A stretch of DNA of 64,000 nt from Chloroflexota bacterium. Lineage in GTDB: Bacteria > Chloroflexota > Dehalococcoidia > Lucifugimonadales > Lucifugimonadaceae. The notes beneath the pieces are model-generated. The model made no database searches and was not told the origin of the DNA. It saw nothing but the letters and a program-made list of their open reading frames with translations. Every line of letters starts with the position of its first letter. Position 1 is the stretch's first letter. The stretch lies in the NCBI GenBank assembly GCA_002718415.1, contig PBEM01000009.1, positions 1 to 64,000 of the forward strand. The letters are read 5' to 3'. The position numbers were made by a program, and so were the translations under genes. Positions 2,733 through 63,852 of the stretch are shown one piece after another.

Positions 2733-3791
2733 TTGCCTATTTTCAAGCCACTTTTATCTAAATATAAAGAATTTTTACCTGTAGGTAAAAATACTCCTCT
2801 TATTACATTAGGTGAAGGTGCTACTCCTTTAGTTCAGTCTTTAAATATAGGACCATCTTTAGGATGCAAAAATCTATACTTTAAATTGGAAGGTTGTAAT
2901 CCTACAGGATCATTTAAGGATCGTGGAATGGTACTAGCTGTAGCAAAAGCATTAGAAAAAGATAAAAAAAAGATTGTTTGCGCTTCAACAGGAAATACTA
3001 GTGCTTCTGCTTCTGCTTATGGAGCTAGATATGGTCTTGAAGCTATAATAATTGTACCTTCTGTAGAAATTGCTTTAGGCAAAATTGTTCAAGCTATGGC
3101 GTACGGAGCGAAAATTATTGCCATAGAAGGTAATTTTGATCAGGCGTTATCAATTGTTCGCTCTATAGTGGAAAAAATGGATATTGAATTAGTAAATTCG
3201 ATAAATCCATATCGTATAGAAGGTCAAAAAACCGGTTCATTTGAAATAATTGATGAAATGGGAAATAATCCAGATATTTTATGTATTCCAGTAGGTAATG
3301 CAGGTAATATTACCGCTTATTGGAAGGGATTTAAGGAATATTATGAAATTGGTAAATCTGAATCTTTACCTAAACTGATGGGATTTCAAGCTTCTGGATC
3401 TGCCCCTATAGTAAAAGGAACAAAAATCGAAAATCCTCAAACATTAGCTACTGCTATAAGAATAGGTAATCCTGCTAGTTGGCAAGGAGCTTTGAAAGCT
3501 AGGGATGAATCTAATGGTTTAATAGATATGGTTACAGATGAAGAGATTATTCAATCTTATCTTAAGTTAACTCGTGAAGAAGGTATATTTTGTGAACCAG
3601 CATCTGCTGCTTCTCTTGCAGGTTTAATAAAATTAGTTAATGATGGAGAGGATATTTCTAATAAATCTGTTGTTTGCGTCCTTACAGGAAATGGACTGAA
3701 AGATCCAGAAACCGTTCAAAAAAAATCAGAAACTAAAATAGAAACTATAGATCCTAATGTAGAAAAAATCTTCGAATTATTAGATGACTAA
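2733..3791 (+). CDS. thrC: threonine synthase (TTG start)
   Basis: PLP motif GSFKDRGM; TPLITLGEGATPLV; follows hom. Confidence 0.93.
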   Translation: MPIFKPLLSKYKEFLPVGKNTPLITLGEGATPLVQSLNIGPSLGCKNLYFKLEGCNPTGSFKDRGMVLAVAKALEKDKKKIVCASTGNTSASASAYGARYGLEAIIIVPSVEIALGKIVQAMAYGAKIIAIEGNFDQALSIVRSIVEKMDIELVNSINPYRIEGQKTGSFEIIDEMGNNPDILCIPVGNAGNITAYWKGFKEYYEIGKSESLPKLMGFQASGSAPIVKGTKIENPQTLATAIRIGNPASWQGALKARDESNGLIDMVTDEEIIQSYLKLTREEGIFCEPASAASLAGLIKLVNDGEDISNKSVVCVLTGNGLKDPETVQKKSETKIETIDPNVEKIFELLDD

Positions 3792-4794
3792 TAAAAATAT
3801 AGTATTAAATACTAATAAAAATCTTCAAGAGTTGTCATGGGATCAAATTTCAGATCAATGGGATGAAGTTTTTAATTCTTTTGATGGTAATCGTTTTTTT
3901 CAATCACAAATAGTAAAAAATATTTGGAAGAAAAATTTTGGTAAAGATAGTAAGTATAAAATTTTTGTAGTTTCCGATACTAATAATAAAATAATTTCAC
4001 CATTTAAAATAAACAAAAATAAATATACTTTTATAGGATCCAAGGATTTATTTGATTATCAGGATTTAATTTATTCAGGTCATAATGGTATTGATGAATT
4101 ATTAGAAACGTTAGTTATCTTTCTCTCGAATGATTTAAGTATAAATGAATTAGAATTAGATTCTATTCCTACCTCATCACCCACAATAGAAAAGATTACA
4201 GTCTATTTAAAAAAATATAATTGGGATGTTGAAATCTCTTTGGAAGATGTCTCTCCAAGGATAATATTACCTGAAACATTTGAAGAATATTTATCTTCGT
4301 TAAATAAAAAAAACAGACATGAAATTAGAAGAAAATTAAGACGTTTGAATAAGATAGAATCTGTAAAATCCTATGAATTTTCAGATAAAAAAGATATTAA
4401 AGAAAATATGGGAGAATTTTTTAGACTACTCAGGAAGAGTACACCTGATAAAAATAATTTTATGACTGTAAATAGAGAAAATTTTTTTAGAGATATATCT
4501 ATAAATATGTCAAAATTAGGAAGTACCAGGTTACGATTTCTAGAAGTGGATAACAAAAAAGTGGCAACTTCATTGAGTTTTTTAAAGGATAAGGTTAAGT
4601 ATTTATATAATAGTGGTTATGACCCTGAATATAGTGATTTATCAGTAGGTGTTTTAAATCATGTTTTATCAATACAACATTCAATATTGGAAAATCACTT
4701 AATTTTTGATTTTATGAGGGGGGATGAGGTTTATAAATATAGATTAGGTGGTGTTGACGAAACTGTTAGCAAAGTACTTGCAAAAAAAAGATAG
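3784..4794 (+). CDS. GNAT/FemAB-like (CelD/BcsL-type) acetyltransferase family protein
   Basis: NKKNRHEIRRKLRRL ... DNKKVATSLSFLKDKVKYLYNSGYDPEYSDLSVGVLN typical of Acetyltransf_6/CelD-type proteins. Confidence 0.65.
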   Translation: MTNKNIVLNTNKNLQELSWDQISDQWDEVFNSFDGNRFFQSQIVKNIWKKNFGKDSKYKIFVVSDTNNKIISPFKINKNKYTFIGSKDLFDYQDLIYSGHNGIDELLETLVIFLSNDLSINELELDSIPTSSPTIEKITVYLKKYNWDVEISLEDVSPRIILPETFEEYLSSLNKKNRHEIRRKLRRLNKIESVKSYEFSDKKDIKENMGEFFRLLRKSTPDKNNFMTVNRENFFRDISINMSKLGSTRLRFLEVDNKKVATSLSFLKDKVKYLYNSGYDPEYSDLSVGVLNHVLSIQHSILENHLIFDFMRGDEVYKYRLGGVDETVSKVLAKKR

Positions 4795-7212: not shown

Positions 7213-8895
7213 ATGTCGAAACAATATACCGGAGCTGAAATAGTTTGTAGAGCACTAATAAATGAAGGTGTTGATGTAGTATTTGGTTTACCAGGTGGCG
7301 CAGTTCTACCTCTATATGGAGTTTTATCTCAATTTCCAGAAATTAATCATATTTTAGTTAGACATGAACAAGGTGCTGCTCATGCTGCAGATGCATATTC
7401 GAGATCTACTGATAAAGTAGGTGTCGCTTTTGCTACTTCTGGCCCTGGTGCTACCAACTTGATAACTGGGCTAGCTACTGCAATGATGGATTCAGCTCCA
7501 ATGGTAGCTATAACAGGACAGGTTGGCAGATCTGCAATTGGTACAGACGCATTTCAAGAAACAGATATTACAGGGGCTACTCTACCAGTTACCAAACATA
7601 ATTATTTAGTTATGAATGCATCAGATATAGGAGATGTTATTCATGAAGCATTTTATATAGCTAAAACTGGAAGACCAGGACCGGTTTTAATAGATATTCC
7701 TAAAGATGTTTTTACAGAAAAGTCTTATTATAATGGTAGAAATGAAATTTCCATACCAGGATATAAAATACCTTCAAAAACTACTAAGAATAAAATTGAT
7801 GAAGCTGTAGCTTTAATTGAAAAATCTAAGAGACCTGTAATTTTAGCAGGTCATGGGGTTATAATTTCTAAGGCATTTTCTCAATTAAAAGAATTTAGTG
7901 AGAAATCCCAAATTCCAGTTGTTACAACTTTATTAGGGATTTCTAGTTTTCCCGAAGATCATATACTTTCCTGTGGTTTTCCTGGTATGCATGGAATGGC
8001 ATACGCTAGTCTTATATTGGATCAAAGTGATTTAATAATAGGGATTGGTACTCGATTTGATGATAGGATTGTTGGAGATCCGAAAAGATTTTCAACTAAA
8101 TCTAAAAAAATTCATATTGATATAGATGCTTCTGAAATTGGAAAAACTATCAAGGTTGATGTCCCTATAATTGGAAATATTATAGATGTATTAAATCAGA
8201 TTAATCCTGAATTATCGAAAAATTTAAGACCGGAGTGGTTAGATACAGTATCAAAATTGAAAGTAAATCATCCATCATTAGAAATACCTAATTCTGACCA
8301 TTTACTTGGGCAAAGTGTAGTTAAGGCTTTATCAGAAATTACTCAAGGTAATGCGATAATATGTTCAGGAGTTGGGCAACATCAAATGTGGGCTGCTCAA
8401 CATTATAAATTTATTCAACCTAACTCATGGATTTCTTCTGGAGGGTTAGGAACAATGGGTTATGAAGTTCCATCTGCTATAGGGGCACAAGTTGGAAATC
8501 CTGATAAACTTGTTTGGTCAATTTGTGGGGATGGAGGTTTTCAAATGACTATGATGGAATTAGCTACAGCTAAAGAAAATAATCTTCCTGTTAAATATGC
8601 AATTTTAAATAACAATCATTTGGGGATGATTACCCAATGGCAAGGTTTATTTTATAATGAAGATTATCAAGCCGAAACTTATACTGGTAATCCGGATTTT
8701 GTTAAATTGGCTGAATCTTATGGGATAAAAGGCCTGCGGGTAGATAATAAAGATGATTTATTTGATGTCATAAAAGTAGCTAATTCTCATTCTGGTCCTG
8801 TAGTAGTAGATTTTGTAATAAAAAAAGTTGATAATGTATATCCTATGATACCTGCTGGCCAAAGTGTTTCAGAATTAATTGGGGAGAATATTTAA
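7213..8895 (+). CDS. ilvB: acetolactate synthase large subunit
   Basis: RHEQGAAHAADAYSRST, GPGATNLITGLATAMMDSAPMVAITGQV, ThDP motif GDGGFQMTMMELATAKENNLPVKYAILNN; adjacent ilvN. Confidence 0.97.
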   Translation: MSKQYTGAEIVCRALINEGVDVVFGLPGGAVLPLYGVLSQFPEINHILVRHEQGAAHAADAYSRSTDKVGVAFATSGPGATNLITGLATAMMDSAPMVAITGQVGRSAIGTDAFQETDITGATLPVTKHNYLVMNASDIGDVIHEAFYIAKTGRPGPVLIDIPKDVFTEKSYYNGRNEISIPGYKIPSKTTKNKIDEAVALIEKSKRPVILAGHGVIISKAFSQLKEFSEKSQIPVVTTLLGISSFPEDHILSCGFPGMHGMAYASLILDQSDLIIGIGTRFDDRIVGDPKRFSTKSKKIHIDIDASEIGKTIKVDVPIIGNIIDVLNQINPELSKNLRPEWLDTVSKLKVNHPSLEIPNSDHLLGQSVVKALSEITQGNAIICSGVGQHQMWAAQHYKFIQPNSWISSGGLGTMGYEVPSAIGAQVGNPDKLVWSICGDGGFQMTMMELATAKENNLPVKYAILNNNHLGMITQWQGLFYNEDYQAETYTGNPDFVKLAESYGIKGLRVDNKDDLFDVIKVANSHSGPVVVDFVIKKVDNVYPMIPAGQSVSELIGENI

Positions 8896-53262: not shown

Positions 53263-54336
53263 ATGACAAAAAATATTAACGTTGGTTTTATAGGTGCTGG
53301 AGCTAATACAGAGCTAAGACATGCGCCAGGTTTTAATTCTATAGATAATGTTTTTCTAAAAGGTGTTGCTAATAGAACTATAGAATCAGGAGAAAAAGCA
53401 GCCAAAAAGCTAGGTATAGAAAAAGTATATTCAAATTGGGTAGACTTGATTGAGGATGATGAAATTGATGCTATATGTATAGGCACTTGGCCTTATACTC
53501 ATGCTAGTATGTCTATTGCAGCATTGGAAAACTATAAACATGTACTTTGTGAAGCTAGAATGGCTATGAATTCGATAGAAGCACATGCTATGTTAGATGC
53601 TTCTTTGAATAGCCCAGGGACTATTGCTCAGGTCGTTCCTCCGCCACATACAATGAAAATTGAACAACATGTAACAGATTTAATTAATGAAGGTTATATT
53701 GGGGATATTATTGGAGTGAACGCTAGAATTTTCCAAGGGTCAACATTTCCAAATCCTAACACTCCAATTCATTGGAGGAATCGCAAGGATTTATCTGGTA
53801 ATAACATCATGACGATGGGAATATGGTATGAAAATTTAATGAGATGGGTAGGTACTGCATCATCTGTATTATCTGTAGGTCAGACTATTGTAAAAAATAG
53901 ACGTCATTCCAATGGAGAAAGAATGGAAATACAAATTCCTGATTATTTAGATATAATTTATAAACTTTATGGAGGAGGTGTTGTTAATCTTTCTATGTCT
54001 ACAGTAGCTGGAAATTTTGCACCTGAATTAGATATTTGGATTTTTGGTTCATCAGGGACACTTAGAATTTTATCATCAGATTTTTCTAATCCTGGAAAGC
54101 CTGAATTAATTGTAAAAGGAGCTAATATTTCTGATAAAGAGATGAAAACTTTAGAAATACCGAAAGATAAACAATCTAGTTGGAGAGTAGAAGAAGAATT
54201 TATTAATTCTATTAGAGGTTTAGAAACAGTTAGGAGAACTAACTTTACAGATGGAGTTAAATATATGGAATTTACTGATGCTGTTTCAGAATCTTTACAA
54301 ACAGGGGACACAGTAAATTTACCGATACATTATTAG
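53263..54336 (+). CDS. Gfo/Idh/MocA family oxidoreductase
   Basis: NVGFIGAGANTELRHAPGF...; ALENYKHVLCEARMAMN (EKP-like position). Confidence 0.88.
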   Translation: MTKNINVGFIGAGANTELRHAPGFNSIDNVFLKGVANRTIESGEKAAKKLGIEKVYSNWVDLIEDDEIDAICIGTWPYTHASMSIAALENYKHVLCEARMAMNSIEAHAMLDASLNSPGTIAQVVPPPHTMKIEQHVTDLINEGYIGDIIGVNARIFQGSTFPNPNTPIHWRNRKDLSGNNIMTMGIWYENLMRWVGTASSVLSVGQTIVKNRRHSNGERMEIQIPDYLDIIYKLYGGGVVNLSMSTVAGNFAPELDIWIFGSSGTLRILSSDFSNPGKPELIVKGANISDKEMKTLEIPKDKQSSWRVEEEFINSIRGLETVRRTNFTDGVKYMEFTDAVSESLQTGDTVNLPIHY

Positions 54337-54351
54337 ATTTAGGAAATATTT

Positions 54352-55125
54352 ATGATTCATAAAAGTATTGATATTAACTCGGATATAGGTGAATCATTTG
54401 GTACATATAAGTTAGGATCAGATGCTGAAATATGTAAGTATGTTTCTAGCGTTAATATAGCTACAGGATTTCATGCAGGTGATCCTAATTGTATGAATGA
54501 AACTGTTTTAATAGCTAATAAAAATAACTTAGGTATTGGGGCACATCCCGCATATCAAGATTTGGTTGGATTTGGACGAAGAGAAATGTCTCTTTCATAT
54601 GAGGATATTTACAATTTAATGACATATCAAATTGGAGCTTTGGCAGCATTTACTAAAGATCATAAAATACAACATGTTAAACCTCATGGAGCATTATATA
54701 ATTCTGCTGTTTCGAATAAATTAGTTGCTGAATCTGTCGTAAATTCTATTTATGATTATGATCCTAATGTAATTCATGTTGTTCTTGCAGGTTCGGAATG
54801 GGAAAATATAGCTAAATCTCGTGGAGTAATAGTCGCAAGAGAATGCTATGCTGATAGAGCAATTAATTCAGATGGGACTTTAGTTTCTAGGAAAATAGAT
54901 AAAGCAGTAATACATGATCCTTCAGAAGTGATTGATAGGTCTCTAAAATTAGTATTAGATCATAAGGTGCAAACTATAGATGGTGATCAGATAGATTTTG
55001 AAGCTGATACCATATGTGTACATGGTGATACAAAAGGTTCTGTAGAATTAGCTAAATTAATTCGTATAGAAATGGAAAAAAATTCTATTAAAATCGATAA
55101 AATGAGTAATATATTGAGAAATTAA
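54352..55125 (+). CDS. pxpA: LamB/YcsF family, 5-oxoprolinase subunit A-like
   Basis: IDINSDIGESFGTYKLGSDAEI; NIATGFHAGDPNCM; GAHPAYQDLVGFGRREM; HVKPHGALYN. Confidence 0.94.
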   Translation: MIHKSIDINSDIGESFGTYKLGSDAEICKYVSSVNIATGFHAGDPNCMNETVLIANKNNLGIGAHPAYQDLVGFGRREMSLSYEDIYNLMTYQIGALAAFTKDHKIQHVKPHGALYNSAVSNKLVAESVVNSIYDYDPNVIHVVLAGSEWENIAKSRGVIVARECYADRAINSDGTLVSRKIDKAVIHDPSEVIDRSLKLVLDHKVQTIDGDQIDFEADTICVHGDTKGSVELAKLIRIEMEKNSIKIDKMSNILRN

Positions 55126-55812
55126 TTGGTTGATTATCCTCGTATATTGAATTCTGGAGATTCAGCTATTAGTGTTGAATTTGGGAATAAGATTGATATA
55201 GATATAAACTTAAAAGTTTACGCTTTGAAAAGTTTATTGGAATCAGATAATTCTTTCAAATTTCTAAGCTTGATCCCTTCTTACTGTTCTTTGTTAATCG
55301 AATACGATATTGTTTTATATTCTCACTCACAAATAAAAGAATATATAAATAATAAAATTAATATTTTAAATCCTTACAAACCGAAAAAGAATCAAAACCA
55401 AGTTATTAAGATACCTGTTGTATATGGGAAAGATTTTGGACCAGATATAGATTATGTTTCAAGTTATACAAAATTAACAATTAGTGATTTGATTTCTATA
55501 CATACTTCGAAAGAATATTACGTATATATGATTGGTTTTTCACCAGGGTTCCCATATTTGGGAGGAATGGATAAAAGAATCTTTTGTCCTAGATTAGAAA
55601 CTCCTAGAATTAAAATTCATGAAGGATCTGTAGGGATAGCTGGTCAGCAAACTGGAATTTATCCTTCTGAAAGCCCTGGTGGTTGGCAAATAATAGGCCG
55701 TACACCTCTTAAATTATTTAATCTTAATCAAAATCCTCCGGCTTTAATACTTCCAGGTTCTTATGTTAAATTTTACCCAATATCAGAAGAAGAATATTTT
55801 GAAAAATTATGA
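55126..55812 (+). CDS. pxpB: 5-oxoprolinase subunit B-like/allophanate hydrolase subunit 1 family (TTG start)
   Basis: IGFSPGFPYLGGMDKRIFCPRLETPRIKIHEGSVGIAGQQTGIYPSESPGGWQIIGRTP. Confidence 0.94.
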   Translation: MVDYPRILNSGDSAISVEFGNKIDIDINLKVYALKSLLESDNSFKFLSLIPSYCSLLIEYDIVLYSHSQIKEYINNKINILNPYKPKKNQNQVIKIPVVYGKDFGPDIDYVSSYTKLTISDLISIHTSKEYYVYMIGFSPGFPYLGGMDKRIFCPRLETPRIKIHEGSVGIAGQQTGIYPSESPGGWQIIGRTPLKLFNLNQNPPALILPGSYVKFYPISEEEYFEKL

Positions 55813-56849
55813 AAAATATAATTAAAGTTTTAAAAGCTGGCCCAATGCTTTTATTGCAAGATTCTGGTAGAAGAGGATTTGAAGAATATGGTGTTTCTAT
55901 ATCAGGTGCAGCTGACACAGAAGCATATAATGTGTCCAATCGTTTAGTTTTTAATAATGAAAACGATACAGTTTTAGAAATATTTTATGGAGATGTCTCT
56001 CTTAAATTTTATGGAGATAATGTTATTGCTATTTCAGGTGGAGATTTAGGTGCAGAAATTAATTCAATAAAATGTCCATTGAACATGTCATTCTTTGTTC
56101 CAGATGGGAGTGTTTTGAAATTTCATTATCCATTAAATGGTGTTAGATCATACTTAGCTATTTCAGGCGGAATTGAAACAAAAAAAATTTTAGGATCTAG
56201 ATCTATGCATGTAACTTCTGGTATAGCTGGGCACAAAGTTAAATCAGGAGATATCCTGCCTATTGGACTTAATAATAAATTCAAATCTGGATTTACAATT
56301 AAAAACTACAAAAGAGATTTAGATTTTGGCATCAATAATATCGGCGTTGTTTTAGGGCAACAAGTCGATAAATTTAGCTCTGAAATGATAGAACGTTTTT
56401 TTAAAGATAAATATATATTGTCAGATAAATCAGATAGACAGGGATTGCGATTGAATGGTAATAAAATTTTTACAATAAATAATGACCATGATATTATTTC
56501 TGATCCTGTAATTCATGGTTCGATACAAATTCCTGGTAGCGGATACCCGATTATATTAATGCCGGATACTCAGACTACTGGAGGTTATCCTAAAATAGGG
56601 AATATAGGTAAAATTTATTTAGATGTTCTAGCTCAATTAAAAGCTGGTGATGAAATTATTTTCTTTCCAATTTCACCAAAAAAATCTCGTGAAGAATATA
56701 TTATTAGGAGATCATTAATCTATCAGAGTAAAATTTTTAGAGATATAAAATTAGATGATTATATGGTCAATGGGAAAGATATAATGATAGGTATGAACGA
56801 TAATATTATTTTTACTGAAAATCATGCTTTTTTATTTAATTTATTATAG
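55809..56849 (+). CDS. pxpC: 5-oxoprolinase subunit C-like/biotin-dependent carboxyltransferase family
   Basis: VLKAGPMLLLQDSGRRGFEEYGVSISGAADTEAYNVSNRLV; MPDTQTTGGYPKIGNI. Confidence 0.94.
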   Translation: MKNIIKVLKAGPMLLLQDSGRRGFEEYGVSISGAADTEAYNVSNRLVFNNENDTVLEIFYGDVSLKFYGDNVIAISGGDLGAEINSIKCPLNMSFFVPDGSVLKFHYPLNGVRSYLAISGGIETKKILGSRSMHVTSGIAGHKVKSGDILPIGLNNKFKSGFTIKNYKRDLDFGINNIGVVLGQQVDKFSSEMIERFFKDKYILSDKSDRQGLRLNGNKIFTINNDHDIISDPVIHGSIQIPGSGYPIILMPDTQTTGGYPKIGNIGKIYLDVLAQLKAGDEIIFFPISPKKSREEYIIRRSLIYQSKIFRDIKLDDYMVNGKDIMIGMNDNIIFTENHAFLFNLL

Positions 56850-56900
56850 ATGTTTGATTATAAATGATATTATTTTCACTGAGTAGGATATAAAAATATT

Positions 56901-57260
56901 ATGAATGAAAGCATTGAACAGGGTATTCTGGTAGCAATACAAGGAATGATAGTAGTTTTTATTGTTTTAATTTTACTGGCATTATTTATAGTAATATTTA
57001 AATTTTTCGATCAAAAATTATATCCTTTACCAAATAATAAAAATACTCAGGATATAAAATATAGTGATCCAATTTCTCCAGAAAAAATTGCTGCTATAGC
57101 ATTAAGTATATTTTTGAGAAATAATAAAGAAATTTCTCCAGAAAAATTTGTATCTAATGAACTAAAAGATTCGGTAAATCCATGGGTAATACAAGGTAGA
57201 CAAATAATCTTAAATCAAGAAAATTCAACTAGTAATAATTCTTGGAGAAAAGCAGATTGA
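56901..57260 (+). CDS. OadG/MmdD-like small membrane subunit of Na+-pumping decarboxylase
   Basis: EQGILVAIQGMIVVFIVLILLALFIVIFKFF; precedes biotin carrier and OadB-type genes. Confidence 0.8.
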   Translation: MNESIEQGILVAIQGMIVVFIVLILLALFIVIFKFFDQKLYPLPNNKNTQDIKYSDPISPEKIAAIALSIFLRNNKEISPEKFVSNELKDSVNPWVIQGRQIILNQENSTSNNSWRKAD

Positions 57261-57697
57261 ATTCAAAAAAATTTAATATTGTTATAAATGGTAAATCATA
57301 TGAAATACTTATTGGTGATGTAAATTCTTCGCCTGTTTCTGTATTTGTTGATGGGGTAGAGTATAAGGTTGATTTAAAAGAAAACAAAAATAAAACTTCC
57401 CAAACTCAAGAAGAAAATATTCCAACAAAAAAACCTAAAATTCAAGATAAAAATGTTTCAAATATAAGTTCACACAATATTAATGATGGAACTGTCAGAG
57501 CCCCAATGCCTGGGGTAATATTAGAAGTTAAAGTTGCGGTTAACGATAAAGTAAATGAGGGTGATACATTAATGATTTTGGAATCAATGAAAATGGAAAA
57601 TACTATTAAATCTTCCAGAGGCGGAACTATTGAATCTATTTATATTTCTCAAGGAGATTCAGTTCAACATGGACAAAGTTTGATAGAAATTAAATAG
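57257..57697 (+). CDS. biotin carboxyl carrier subunit (MmdC/GcdC-like); TTG at 57257 overlapping the upstream TGA preferred to 57242
   Basis: VRAPMPGVILEVKVAVNDKVNEGDTLMILESMKMENTIKS; biotinyl-lysine motif ESMKMEN. Confidence 0.92.
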   Translation: MNSKKFNIVINGKSYEILIGDVNSSPVSVFVDGVEYKVDLKENKNKTSQTQEENIPTKKPKIQDKNVSNISSHNINDGTVRAPMPGVILEVKVAVNDKVNEGDTLMILESMKMENTIKSSRGGTIESIYISQGDSVQHGQSLIEIK

Positions 57698-57705
57698 GAA
57701 AAAAA

Positions 57706-58899
57706 TTGGAAAATTACGAAATATTTTTTGAAGGATTCATTTCCTTAGCAGAAGATCCTAGAATGATAATAATGTGGATTATTTCATGCTTGTTACTATA
57801 TTTAGGAATATCAAAAAAGAAAGAACCTTTATTATTAATACCCATTTCAATGGGGATTCTGTTTGCTAATCTACCTTTAGGAGAATTAATAAAACTAGAT
57901 GATAGTGGGCATTCGGGAATTTTGAGAACTTTTCAAGATTTTGGAATGAAAAATGATATTTTCCCATTGTTAATTTTCCTGGGAGTTGGAGCTTCAACAG
58001 ATTTCTCTCCTATGCTTTCAAATCCGAAAACTCTTCTTTTAGGTGCCGCAGCACAAGCAGGTGTTTTTTTTGCTATATTAGGGTCGTTATTATTAGGTTT
58101 GACAACTTTTTTTAATTTTGGGCTACTTGAAGCTTCATCTATTGCGATAATTGGTGGAGCAGATGGGCCAACAACTATATATATTGCTACTAGAATGAAA
58201 GAACTAGGAGAATCACTACCAGGGATAAATGTAAAAGACATAGTTGGTGCTACAGCTGTAGCAGCATATTCATATATGGCATTGGTACCTATAATTCAAC
58301 CTCCTATTATTAAATTACTAACCACAAAAAAAGAACGAAGAATTAGAATGAACTATACTACGGATTCGGTATCGAATAGGACTAAAATACTTTTTCCTAT
58401 TATTTCTATATTGCTAGTAAGTGTTTTAGTCCCTTCAGCATCACCATTAATAGGGATGTTAATGTTAGGTAATTTGATAAAGGTTTCTGGGGTAGTAAAA
58501 CGTTTAGCAGATGTAGCAGAAAATAGTTTAATGAATGCTGTAATAATAATTTTAGGTTTAGCAGTAGGATCAACAATGCCAGGTAATGTTTTTTTACAAT
58601 ATGAAACATTAGGTATTTTTATAATAGGTTTATTTTCATTTATTACAGCTACTGCCTCAGGAATTTTATTAGCTAAACTAATGAATTTATTTATTAAAGA
58701 AAAAATCAACCCAATGATTGGAGCTGCTGGTGTATCTGCTGTTCCTATGGCTGCAAGAGTTGTTCAGGAGATGGGACAAAAAGAAGATAATGATAATCAC
58801 TTATTGATGCACGCTATGGGACCAAATGTAGCTGGCGTTATTGGCACAGCTACAGTAGCAGGAGTACTAATGGCTATAGTACCAGTAATATTAGGATAA
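57706..58899 (+). CDS. Na+-translocating decarboxylase beta subunit (OadB/MmdB/GcdB family; TTG start)
   Basis: LGVGASTDFSPMLSNPKTLLLGAAAQAGVF; AIIGGADGPTTIYIATRM; MGAAGVSAVPMAARVVQ-type segment; MHAMGPNVAGVIGTATVAG. Confidence 0.95.
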   Translation: MENYEIFFEGFISLAEDPRMIIMWIISCLLLYLGISKKKEPLLLIPISMGILFANLPLGELIKLDDSGHSGILRTFQDFGMKNDIFPLLIFLGVGASTDFSPMLSNPKTLLLGAAAQAGVFFAILGSLLLGLTTFFNFGLLEASSIAIIGGADGPTTIYIATRMKELGESLPGINVKDIVGATAVAAYSYMALVPIIQPPIIKLLTTKKERRIRMNYTTDSVSNRTKILFPIISILLVSVLVPSASPLIGMLMLGNLIKVSGVVKRLADVAENSLMNAVIIILGLAVGSTMPGNVFLQYETLGIFIIGLFSFITATASGILLAKLMNLFIKEKINPMIGAAGVSAVPMAARVVQEMGQKEDNDNHLLMHAMGPNVAGVIGTATVAGVLMAIVPVILG

Positions 58900-58913: not shown

Positions 58914-59816
58914 ATGAATAATTTAAATAATTCTTTTCAAGGAATATTTCCTATATTGTCTACTCCTTCGGATAAGAATGGGAATATAGTTTTTGAAGAT
59001 CTTAGAAAAGAAGTTGAATGGATGATTCAAAATGGGGTTAATGGAGTAGGTATTGCTATAGCATCTGAGATTTATAAGTATTCTGAAAAAGAAAGAGATG
59101 AAATTTTATCAACTGTTGTAGATCAAGTTAACGGGAGAGTAATAGTTGTAATGAATACTGGTGGAGAAAGTACTGATCTATCAATTCATTATTCTAAGAA
59201 AGCTATTGAATTAGGTGCTGATGCTTTGATGATAAGACCAGCAACGTTTATACCTACAACCTTTCAAGAAAACATTAATTATTTTACTGAGATTTCGAAA
59301 ACAGTTAAATGCCCTATATTTATGCAGGATCAATCTAGTGCACAGATTTCACCTTCTCTTGCGATAGAGTGTGCTAAAAGAAGTGATAATTTATGTTATA
59401 TAAAAGTAGAAACTCCTCCTACAATTCCACGCATTACGGAGTTAGTAAGTTTAAGGGCTAATGAAAATATAAAAATTTTTGGAGGTGCTGGAGGAGCATA
59501 TTGTGTAGAAGAATTTTCTAGAGGTTCAATTGGTACTATGCCTGGATCTACAATGCCAGATGTGTGGGTTAAAATATGGAATAATTTCATATCGGGTGAT
59601 GTAGAAGAAGCTTTCAAAATACAAAATAGATTTTCACCATTAATTAAAATACTTTCTCAAACATTAGGTTTATCTGCTTTTATATATAAATATATTATGA
59701 TTAGACGAGGAGTTTTTTCAGAAAAATCAGGTTATGTTAGAGGACCTTCTTTACGACCTGACAATTTGCATCTTGAGGAGATCGATATGTTATTAGAAGA
59801 ATTGGAGCTAATATAA
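58914..59816 (+). CDS. DapA/DHDPS-NAL superfamily aldolase-like protein (retains candidate Schiff-base Lys)
   Basis: FQGIFPILSTPSDKNGNI; NGVNGVGIAIASEIYKYSEKER; YIKVETPP. Confidence 0.88.
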   Translation: MNNLNNSFQGIFPILSTPSDKNGNIVFEDLRKEVEWMIQNGVNGVGIAIASEIYKYSEKERDEILSTVVDQVNGRVIVVMNTGGESTDLSIHYSKKAIELGADALMIRPATFIPTTFQENINYFTEISKTVKCPIFMQDQSSAQISPSLAIECAKRSDNLCYIKVETPPTIPRITELVSLRANENIKIFGGAGGAYCVEEFSRGSIGTMPGSTMPDVWVKIWNNFISGDVEEAFKIQNRFSPLIKILSQTLGLSAFIYKYIMIRRGVFSEKSGYVRGPSLRPDNLHLEEIDMLLEELELI

Positions 59817-60713
59817 ATGAATGATTTTTTTAACAAAATTCCTATTGTTGCGCCTACTCCAACTCCTTTCACTAATGATGAGGTAGATTATAAAAAACTT
59901 AGCAATAATATTGAAAAATGGCATAATACTTCTATTTCTGGATTCGTTTTAGGTTCTCATGGAGGTGAAGAATTACATACATCGATTGATGAAAAAAGAC
60001 AGATAATTGATACTGTCGTAGAAACGAATAATAAACAAAAGGTAATTATAGCTGGAATAGAAACCCCTTCTCCAAAAGTGGCTTTAAATCTTATTGATGA
60101 TTACGCATCAAGAGGTGTAGATTTTGTACGAATTCGAATCCCTGGAAGGTTTAAAAAAGGTTCTTTATATTCAGAAAGTGTGGTGAAGTATTTTGAAAAC
60201 ATTTTAAGTGATAGCGCTTTACCTGTAATAGTTATACACCAACCTCGAACTTCTTTAGAACCAGATGTTAGTCCAGAAGAATTGAGTGTTATTTCAGAAA
60301 TTGAAGGCATTGTTGCGTATATAATTTCTTTAAATTTTCGATGGGAAACTGTAATTCCAAAAATAATTTCTAAAAAAATTTATTTATGGACATGTAATGG
60401 AAGTTTATTATTCCCTGGAGCATCAATTGGAGCAACAGGAGCATGTTTGTTTTTTGGTAATTGGGCTCCAGAAAAATGTAGAGAAATTATTAAACTCACT
60501 TTGAATGGAAATTCTGAAGAAGCAATCTCTCTTCAAAAGAATTTAATTTCTGCTGATTATATTGGAATGTCTAGAGGCGTTGGAGCTTTAAAATATGGAT
60601 TAAATCTATTGGGATATGATGCAACTGTGCCTAGATTACCAACTAAACCACTTAGCACAGATGATCAAAAATTACTTAAGAGTGCATTTAAAGATGCATT
60701 AATATTAGATTAA
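59817..60713 (+). CDS. DapA/DHDPS superfamily paralog lacking the canonical Schiff-base lysine
   Basis: IPIVAPTPTPFTNDEVDYKKL; ISGFVLGSHGGEELHTSIDEKRQII; GIVAYIISLNF where GIVGIKDSSGD-like sequence is expected. Confidence 0.85.
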   Translation: MNDFFNKIPIVAPTPTPFTNDEVDYKKLSNNIEKWHNTSISGFVLGSHGGEELHTSIDEKRQIIDTVVETNNKQKVIIAGIETPSPKVALNLIDDYASRGVDFVRIRIPGRFKKGSLYSESVVKYFENILSDSALPVIVIHQPRTSLEPDVSPEELSVISEIEGIVAYIISLNFRWETVIPKIISKKIYLWTCNGSLLFPGASIGATGACLFFGNWAPEKCREIIKLTLNGNSEEAISLQKNLISADYIGMSRGVGALKYGLNLLGYDATVPRLPTKPLSTDDQKLLKSAFKDALILD

Positions 60714-60722
60714 TTAAATTTT

Positions 60723-61526
60723 ATGGAATTAGAACTTTGGAGAATATTGGTATTATTATTTTCTTCTCTTTTAATCGGTTTTATTGGGGGATGTGTAGGT
60801 ATAGCATTGGGTGTAGTAAGAGTCCCTATTATGACCTTTCTAGGAATTGATCCTTTAGTTGCGGCTGGAAGTAATTTATTTGTAACGCTTTTAGGATCTA
60901 TTGGTGGATTATGGCCAGCCTTTACACAAAAACGAATAGTATGGAGAGTGGTTATTCTAGTAGGGATTCCTTCCCTTTTTGGTTCTTTCATAGGAGCTCT
61001 ATATGCTGGAAATTTTTCTCAATTTATTTTACTGATTTTGATAGGAGCAATTTTGTTTTTATCAGCTATTTCTATTATTTTAGTTTCTTCATTTGAGTTA
61101 TTTAAAAAAGATAGAAATGACCCAAATGAGATACTTAAGATAGAAATTGGAAAATTTGGTTTTATTAGAGAAGGCATAGTTGGTGTTGCTATAGGTTTTG
61201 TTGGTGGTTCTGTTGGAGTGGCACTAGGTGTATTGAGGGTACCAGCTCTTGTATATATCCTGAAAATGCATCCGAGTTTATCTGGAGGAACTAATCTTGC
61301 TATTACGATAATTGTGAGTTTATTTGGATTTATGGGACATTCAATAGGTAATAATTATGATATAGATATAATAATAATAATGGGTATCTCAGCTGTTATA
61401 GGTATGTATATAGGTTCTAGATTAGCAGGAAGTTTTGATCCACTTAAATTGAGACTTGGTATAGGTGTTTTGTTGTTATTCGTATCTCCTTTTGTTTTTT
61501 ATGATGCATTTACTAGAATTACATAA
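60723..61526 (+). CDS. TauE/SafE-family membrane transporter
   Basis: Two-fold repeat GFIGGCVGIALGVVRVPIMTFLGIDPLVAAGSNLFVTLLGSIGG / GFVGGSVGVALGVLRVPALVYILKMHPSLSGGTNLAITI. Confidence 0.88.
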   Translation: MELELWRILVLLFSSLLIGFIGGCVGIALGVVRVPIMTFLGIDPLVAAGSNLFVTLLGSIGGLWPAFTQKRIVWRVVILVGIPSLFGSFIGALYAGNFSQFILLILIGAILFLSAISIILVSSFELFKKDRNDPNEILKIEIGKFGFIREGIVGVAIGFVGGSVGVALGVLRVPALVYILKMHPSLSGGTNLAITIIVSLFGFMGHSIGNNYDIDIIIIMGISAVIGMYIGSRLAGSFDPLKLRLGIGVLLLFVSPFVFYDAFTRIT

Positions 61527-63414: not shown

Positions 63415-63852
63415 TTATTTCTTTGTCTCCCAAAAAATTTCTCCAATTTCTTCCAAAGCAGATTTAAATTCATTGGCTTTATCCATATCAACATGTTGTT
63501 TAACATAAGAACCAAGTTTACAGGCATTCCAGACTTTATCGTGCAAATTGGGGTATTTTTCTAAGTGTTCAGGCTTAAAATAATCCGTCCAGATTATTAA
63601 GATATCATCTTTAGCTTTTTTTGCATGTTCCTCTTTTACTGTTACATATCTTGCCATTGAATTGGCTAGATCATGTGATGGACCCCCAGAAAAATCTATT
63701 TCTTCGATTAACTCAGTCATTCGAATCACAGTTTGAGCAGCTTGAATAGCATCTCTTGGGTCGTATATTCCACATGGGATATCACAATGAGCATTGACTA
63801 TTTGAAAAGGGCCTAATTTATTTGAAGTAATTTTAGATATAAAATTAATCAT
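63415..63852 (-). CDS. sodN: nickel superoxide dismutase precursor
   Basis: Nickel-hook motif HCDIPCGIYDP after a short N-terminal leader (MINFISKITSNKLGPFQIVNA); NiSOD-length ORF. Confidence 0.96.
   Translation of the reverse strand: MINFISKITSNKLGPFQIVNAHCDIPCGIYDPRDAIQAAQTVIRMTELIEEIDFSGGPSHDLANSMARYVTVKEEHAKKAKDDILIIWTDYFKPEHLEKYPNLHDKVWNACKLGSYVKQHVDMDKANEFKSALEEIGEIFWETKK

Follow-up and report, generated by a model that had tools for sequence, protein, structure and literature searches.

A conserved pxpABC-oadG-bccp-oadB operon in one order of Chloroflexota and a possible Na+-coupled replacement for biotin carboxylase

We analyzed a stretch of 64,000 nucleotides from a Chloroflexota bacterium (assembly GCA_002718415.1, contig PBEM01000009.1, positions 1 to 64,000; referred to here as the window) in which the genes for the three subunits of the 5-oxoprolinase PxpABC run directly into oadG, bccp, and oadB, encoding an anchor subunit, a biotin carrier, and a Na+-translocating carboxybiotin decarboxylase subunit. 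This linkage is genuine and conserved, and within our sampling it is confined to the window's order; most genomes of the order that encode OadB gave no match to biotin carboxylase (BC) with two Pfam models. The explanation we favor, tentatively and short of calling it probable, is that OadG-BCCP-OadB is a shared Na+-coupled carboxybiotin hub that replaces BC and serves several carboxyltransferases (CTs) and, probably, PxpBC. Within the literature library searched, we found no paper on the pxpABC-oadB linkage or on an acetyl-CoA carboxylase lacking BC.

The operon and its conservation

The six core genes are tightly spaced, pxpB and pxpC overlapping by 4 bases and oadG and bccp by 19, and their families are those that a first-pass annotation of the window had described.

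54352 to 55125, + strand: pxpA, LamB/YcsF family hydrolase, proposed lactam hydrolase (PF03746, 300 bits; NF003814 above cutoff)
55126 to 55812, + strand: pxpB, carboxyltransferase subdomain C/D (PF02682, 232 bits; TIGR00370 above cutoff; R156 at the urea carboxylase Lys position by alignment)
55809 to 56849, + strand: pxpC, carboxyltransferase subdomain A/B (PF02626, 246 bits; TIGR00724 above cutoff)
56901 to 57260, + strand: oadG-like gene, N-terminal transmembrane segment and soluble tail with an AAIA...W-x3-GR motif (PF04277, 42.9 bits, cutoff 27; TIGR01195 below cutoff)
57242 to 57697, + strand: bccp, biotin carboxyl carrier protein (PF00364; motif LESMKMENT)
57706 to 58899, + strand: oadB, Na+-translocating carboxybiotin decarboxylase subunit (TIGR01109, 474 bits, cutoff 190)

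The 5-oxoprolinase subunit set is complete, each subunit exceeding the cutoff of its own model (NF003814, TIGR00370, TIGR00724), and the three genes are adjacent, as they are in many bacteria. Unlike the known prokaryotic 5-oxoprolinase genes, they share an operon with OadG-BCCP-OadB, and PxpC falls below the 5-oxoprolinase equivalog cutoff (NF045499, 206 bits against a cutoff of 500 bits).

Judged from sequence, OadG-BCCP-OadB is best read as an intact membrane module in which the interconversion of biotin and carboxybiotin would be linked to movement of Na+. All six residues essential in the beta subunit of Salmonella oxaloacetate decarboxylase (OAD), namely E40, D203, R304, N311, S382, and N412 (PMC7274780), are kept in the window OadB and in 27/27 aligned relatives; the MKM biotin motif is kept in every carrier examined, and the OadG-like protein passes the PF04277 cutoff for the gamma/delta anchor subunit while failing that of TIGR01195. 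Such Na+ pumps have been reported to run in reverse, with acetyl-CoA carboxylation among the reactions (Dimroth and Hilpert 1984, as cited in PMC7274780). The module resembles the Na+ pumps of OAD and of methylmalonyl-CoA and glutaconyl-CoA decarboxylases (MMD and GCD) in its OadB residues, biotin motif, OadG tail, and the order CT-oadG-bccp-oadB, which is found in Ilyobacter, Parabacteroides, and Peptoclostridium. It differs from them in that pxpABC, with pxpBC in the place of the CT, occupies that position, in that the gene for the acyl-CoA CT is at another locus, its product falling in a different clade from the MmdA of MMD operons, and in that most genomes have no BC.

The first-pass annotation had left the conservation of this gene order to be checked, and it holds well among the 60 genomes of the window's order that made up our sample (the window's own family is designated f1). 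PxpC is encoded in 46/60 and OadB in 47/60, with 43 genomes having both, 10 neither, and 7 being discordant (Fisher p 3e-6); the co-occurrence still gives p 3e-4 with one genome per family (families f2-f24). Wherever both genes are present on contigs allowing judgement, they lie within ~3.5 kb of each other in 38 of 41 genomes and apart in G003, G041, and G046; chance would be expected to place them side by side in ~1% or less per genome, with the caveat that genomes of one order are related and not independent draws. Family f1 has the tandem order pxpA-B-C-oadG-bccp-oadB-dapA-tauE, and in the other families oadB-bccp and pxpABC are in divergent orientation, so that oadB is tied to pxpABC, and not to mmdA, in two arrangements over ~10 families. 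Elsewhere in the phylum, the pxpC-oadB neighborhood was seen in 0/22 genomes with both genes, and OadB lies mostly within an mmdA-oadG-bccp-oadB operon. Those loci that have named records are metagenome-assembled genomes of Chloroflexi or Dehalococcoidia. We considered whether OadB had come to lie beside pxpABC twice independently, as the tandem (f1) and divergent (f2) OadB fall in different clades of the tree, and set the idea aside, as their joint grouping was not rejected (approximately unbiased test, p 0.42).

Biotin carboxylase, carboxyltransferases, and carriers

Searched for with PF02785 and then PF00289, BC was not found in 38 of the 47 genomes with OadB, whereas it is present in 11 of the 13 without it (BC versus OadB, p 3e-5, related genomes being counted as independent); of the two genomes that have neither, G014 is 69% complete and G023 61%. 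The single-contig genomes G003, G013, and G029 have no BC by both Pfam models, yet keep two PF01039 CTs, and AccDA is retained in G013 and G003. Among the Biotin_lipoyl matches listed for seven f1 genomes (G003, G004, G007, G008, G009, G013, and G029), each genome has one free-standing carrier, the other matches being long E2-type frames. In those of these genomes that lack BC, no enzyme other than OadB was found that could add CO2 to biotin or remove it, and because AccDA needs carboxybiotin, Na+-driven carboxylation of biotin is the simplest inference for them. Even a modest reading of the module would account for carrier loading in genomes that have CTs and no BC.

It had also been claimed from the sequence that no canonical CT accompanies these genes. 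This is correct for the operon and, as far as its genome goes (1.06 Mb, 74% complete), for the window's host, in which the sole PF01039 match is a fused AccD-AccA on another contig and PF02436 gave no match. It does not extend to the genus: an MmdA-like CT is encoded away from the operon in both G001 (TIGR01117, 789 bits, below cutoff) and G002, and G001 also carries an OadA-like CT. Some kind of PF01039 CT occurs in 60/60 relatives, and an MmdA-like CT in all except G000, G012, and G033, in which AccDA was the only CT found; many BC-less genomes have no OadA-like CT. Since almost every genome of the order has the MmdA-like CT, its distribution does not follow that of OadB; the distribution of PxpC does. 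The first-pass annotation had held that a CT encoded elsewhere and pairing consistently with the pump subunits would count against its proposal; such a CT exists, but its occurrence does not follow that of OadB. In the tree, the MmdA-like CTs of the order form one supported clade (99/97) that lies apart from MMD-operon MmdA and takes in genomes and families with BC and others with OadB.

Several of these CT genes have distinctive surroundings or forms. The f1 MmdA-like gene adjoins isocitrate or malate dehydrogenase genes (L109-L118, L128), and the corresponding cluster in G009 also holds a BC. One genome of the order, G043, has thirteen PF02436 (OadA/pyruvate carboxylase CT) matches, and four genomes of one genus (G010, G019, G028, G036) have open frames of 1110-1160 aa combining BC and PF01039 CT domains.

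Three relatives without OadB, G004, G009, and G023, keep pxpABC-bccp; two of them, G004 and G009, have BC. In all three, a short open reading frame (ORF) between pxpC and bccp corresponds to the soluble OadG tail (AAIAVAIAL...PW-x3-GR), the membrane segment being gone.

L066, ~7400 to 7660, + strand: OadG tail-only ORF
L071, 5131 to 5481, - strand: OadG tail-only ORF
L094, ~3700 to 3940, - strand: OadG tail-only ORF

These relatives fit a scheme in which the partner of one and the same carrier is switched, being a Na+-coupled membrane complex in some genomes and a soluble enzyme driven by ATP in others; the tail-only ORFs do not alone establish PxpBC as a CT.

PxpBC and the competing explanations

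The homology of PxpB and PxpC to parts of urea amidolyase, to which the first-pass annotation had pointed, was borne out: together they correspond to CT subdomains A-D of urea carboxylase (PF02682, PF02626; PDB 3va7 and 5i8i). Clusters of the type pxpBC-bccp-accC occur in Bacillota (L178, L181, L193, L198, L210) and Haladaptatus. Like the window operon, they place pxpBC next to genes for a biotin carrier and for an enzyme that forms or consumes carboxybiotin; unlike it, they have an ATP-driven BC in this role and not the Na+-coupled OadB. PDB 9yx5 combines allophanate hydrolase subunits 1 and 2, relatives of PxpB and PxpC, with the biotin enzyme AccA3. The earlier suggestion that PxpBC acts on the carrier gains from these clusters, from this structure, and from the CT position of pxpBC, and loses from the residue at the catalytic position. 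The general-base Lys of the urea carboxylase CT is K1605 in Kluyveromyces lactis urea amidolyase (PMC5770610), and the residue of the window PxpB that aligns with it, in a column placed by counting along the alignment, is R156. Arg stands at this position in nearly all PxpB examined, biotin-linked or not, and Lys only in the Haladaptatus protein and in urea carboxylases. A residue signature splitting biotin-linked from unlinked PxpB was looked for and none was seen, Arg being found in both. The Haladaptatus PxpB-like protein with the Lys is encoded on a plasmid, beside a BC (L129), and Sporomusa silvacetica (L181) has two nearby pxpBC pairs, one of which is followed by bccp and accC.

With urea carboxylase and allophanate hydrolase, the window operon shares the CT homology of PxpBC and a biotin carrier encoded alongside; it differs in having no BC domain, in the Lys-to-Arg replacement, and in that PxpA is not an amidase-signature hydrolase. 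Since opening of 5-oxoproline is uphill (Keq ~0.035; PMC13274462), it needs a driving step, which could be ATP or carboxybiotin. If OadG-BCCP-OadB has replaced the ATP-dependent BC in this lineage, its single carrier would feed the acyl-CoA CTs encoded elsewhere (MmdA-like, AccDA, and in some genomes OadA-like) and probably PxpBC, and the likeliest direction, at least for AccDA, would be Na+ influx driving biotin carboxylation. PxpBC would then carboxylate 5-oxoproline, or a similar lactam, on its ring nitrogen, PxpA would hydrolyze the activated ring, and the N-carboxy product would shed CO2, as in the pairing of urea carboxylase with allophanate hydrolase. The full form of this proposal, in which BC-free cells form carboxybiotin by the Na+ gradient through OadB and one hub powers both acyl-CoA carboxylation and a biotin-dependent lactam opening by PxpABC, we consider rather unlikely as a whole. 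If true, it would mean that a Na+-gradient step can replace ATP-driven biotin carboxylation, the step with which all acetyl-CoA and propionyl-CoA carboxylases are held to begin, that uncultured Chloroflexota may depend on such a step, and that the unexplained likeness of PxpBC to carboxyltransferases becomes a directly testable mechanism.

Several observations weigh against a hub that serves PxpBC, and some of them speak for its main rival, in which two independent activities share one operon: an ordinary ATP-dependent 5-oxoprolinase, and a propionyl-CoA carboxylase or methylmalonyl-CoA decarboxylase that would draw its CT (MmdA-like, sometimes OadA-like) from another locus, the CT docking to OadG and the carrier. 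Descriptions of known PxpABC make it an ATP-dependent enzyme and assume that 5-oxoproline is phosphorylated; because PxpB has Arg at the essential Lys position, a urea-carboxylase-like mechanism is not assured; and in the tree, BC-linked PxpBC do not group together and lie interspersed with unlinked ones. BC is also present in nine of the OadB genomes. The OadG tail is that of OadG from MMD operons, and because the motif is common to these, it may dock an MmdA-type CT, a candidate for which is present in nearly all relatives and lies, in f1, beside the dehydrogenase genes. Methylcitrate-type genes are found near oadB in several genomes, and in G003 pxpABC lies ~140 kb from bccp-oadB-dapA-tauE and the methylcitrate-type set, which stay together. 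What tells against two separate functions is that PxpC tracks OadB and the MmdA-like CT does not, that the linkage of oadB to pxpABC rather than mmdA recurs in both arrangements, and that other phyla also have pxpBC linked to genes for biotin proteins. We regard the two-function explanation as a distinct possibility that we nevertheless doubt.

The first-pass annotation had instead proposed a forward pump, in which biotin receives a carboxyl group that PxpBC, perhaps with PxpA, removes from a substrate, and decarboxylation of carboxybiotin by OadB is coupled to Na+ export. The intact OadB and the place of PxpBC in the classical CT-OadG-BCCP-OadB order would suit it, but G004 and G009 pair the same pxpABC-bccp unit with an ATP-driven BC, which works toward carboxylation, nothing points to a carboxylated substrate, and the CT Lys is not conserved in PxpB; the proposed direction is not supported, and we find the forward pump very improbable, and less likely than a shared carboxybiotin hub replacing BC. 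Nearly as improbable is a transcarboxylation scheme, in which an MmdA- or OadA-like CT would use methylmalonyl-CoA or oxaloacetate to charge the shared carrier for AccDA and PxpBC, with OadB only bleeding excess carboxybiotin as a forward Na+ pump. A single carrier, several CTs, the lack of BC, and the OadA-like CT of some genomes are all compatible with it; many BC-less genomes, however, have no OadA-like CT, and net carboxyl supply would then need a steady source of methylmalonyl-CoA, which is not evident.

Neighboring genes

The full operon reads Gfo/Idh - pxpA - pxpB - pxpC - oadG - bccp - oadB - dapA - dapA - tauE. The first-pass annotation had begun the Pxp set at 53263 and ended the operon at 58899; the genes are as it named them, except that its first ORF is not a Pxp subunit, and the tight spacing continues past 58899 into two dihydrodipicolinate synthase (DHDPS)-family genes and a TauE gene.

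53263 to 54336, + strand: Gfo/Idh/MocA oxidoreductase, operon 5' end, 15 bases before pxpA (PF01408)
58914 to 59816 and 59817 to 60713, + strand: two DHDPS-family (dapA) genes (PF00701)
60723 to 61526, + strand: TauE/SafE-type exporter gene (PF01925)

A DapA-family gene lies 3' of oadB in nearly all f1 genomes examined. The methylcitrate-type set is found 3' of oadB-dapA-tauE in L065, L073-L077, L135, L137, L150, and L174, its prpB, prpC, and MmgE/PrpD genes having been identified by family models in L075 only. Near the end of the operon, at 63415-63852 on the - strand, the window has a nickel superoxide dismutase-like gene, assigned by eye, and such a gene is also kept near the operon in several streamlined relatives.

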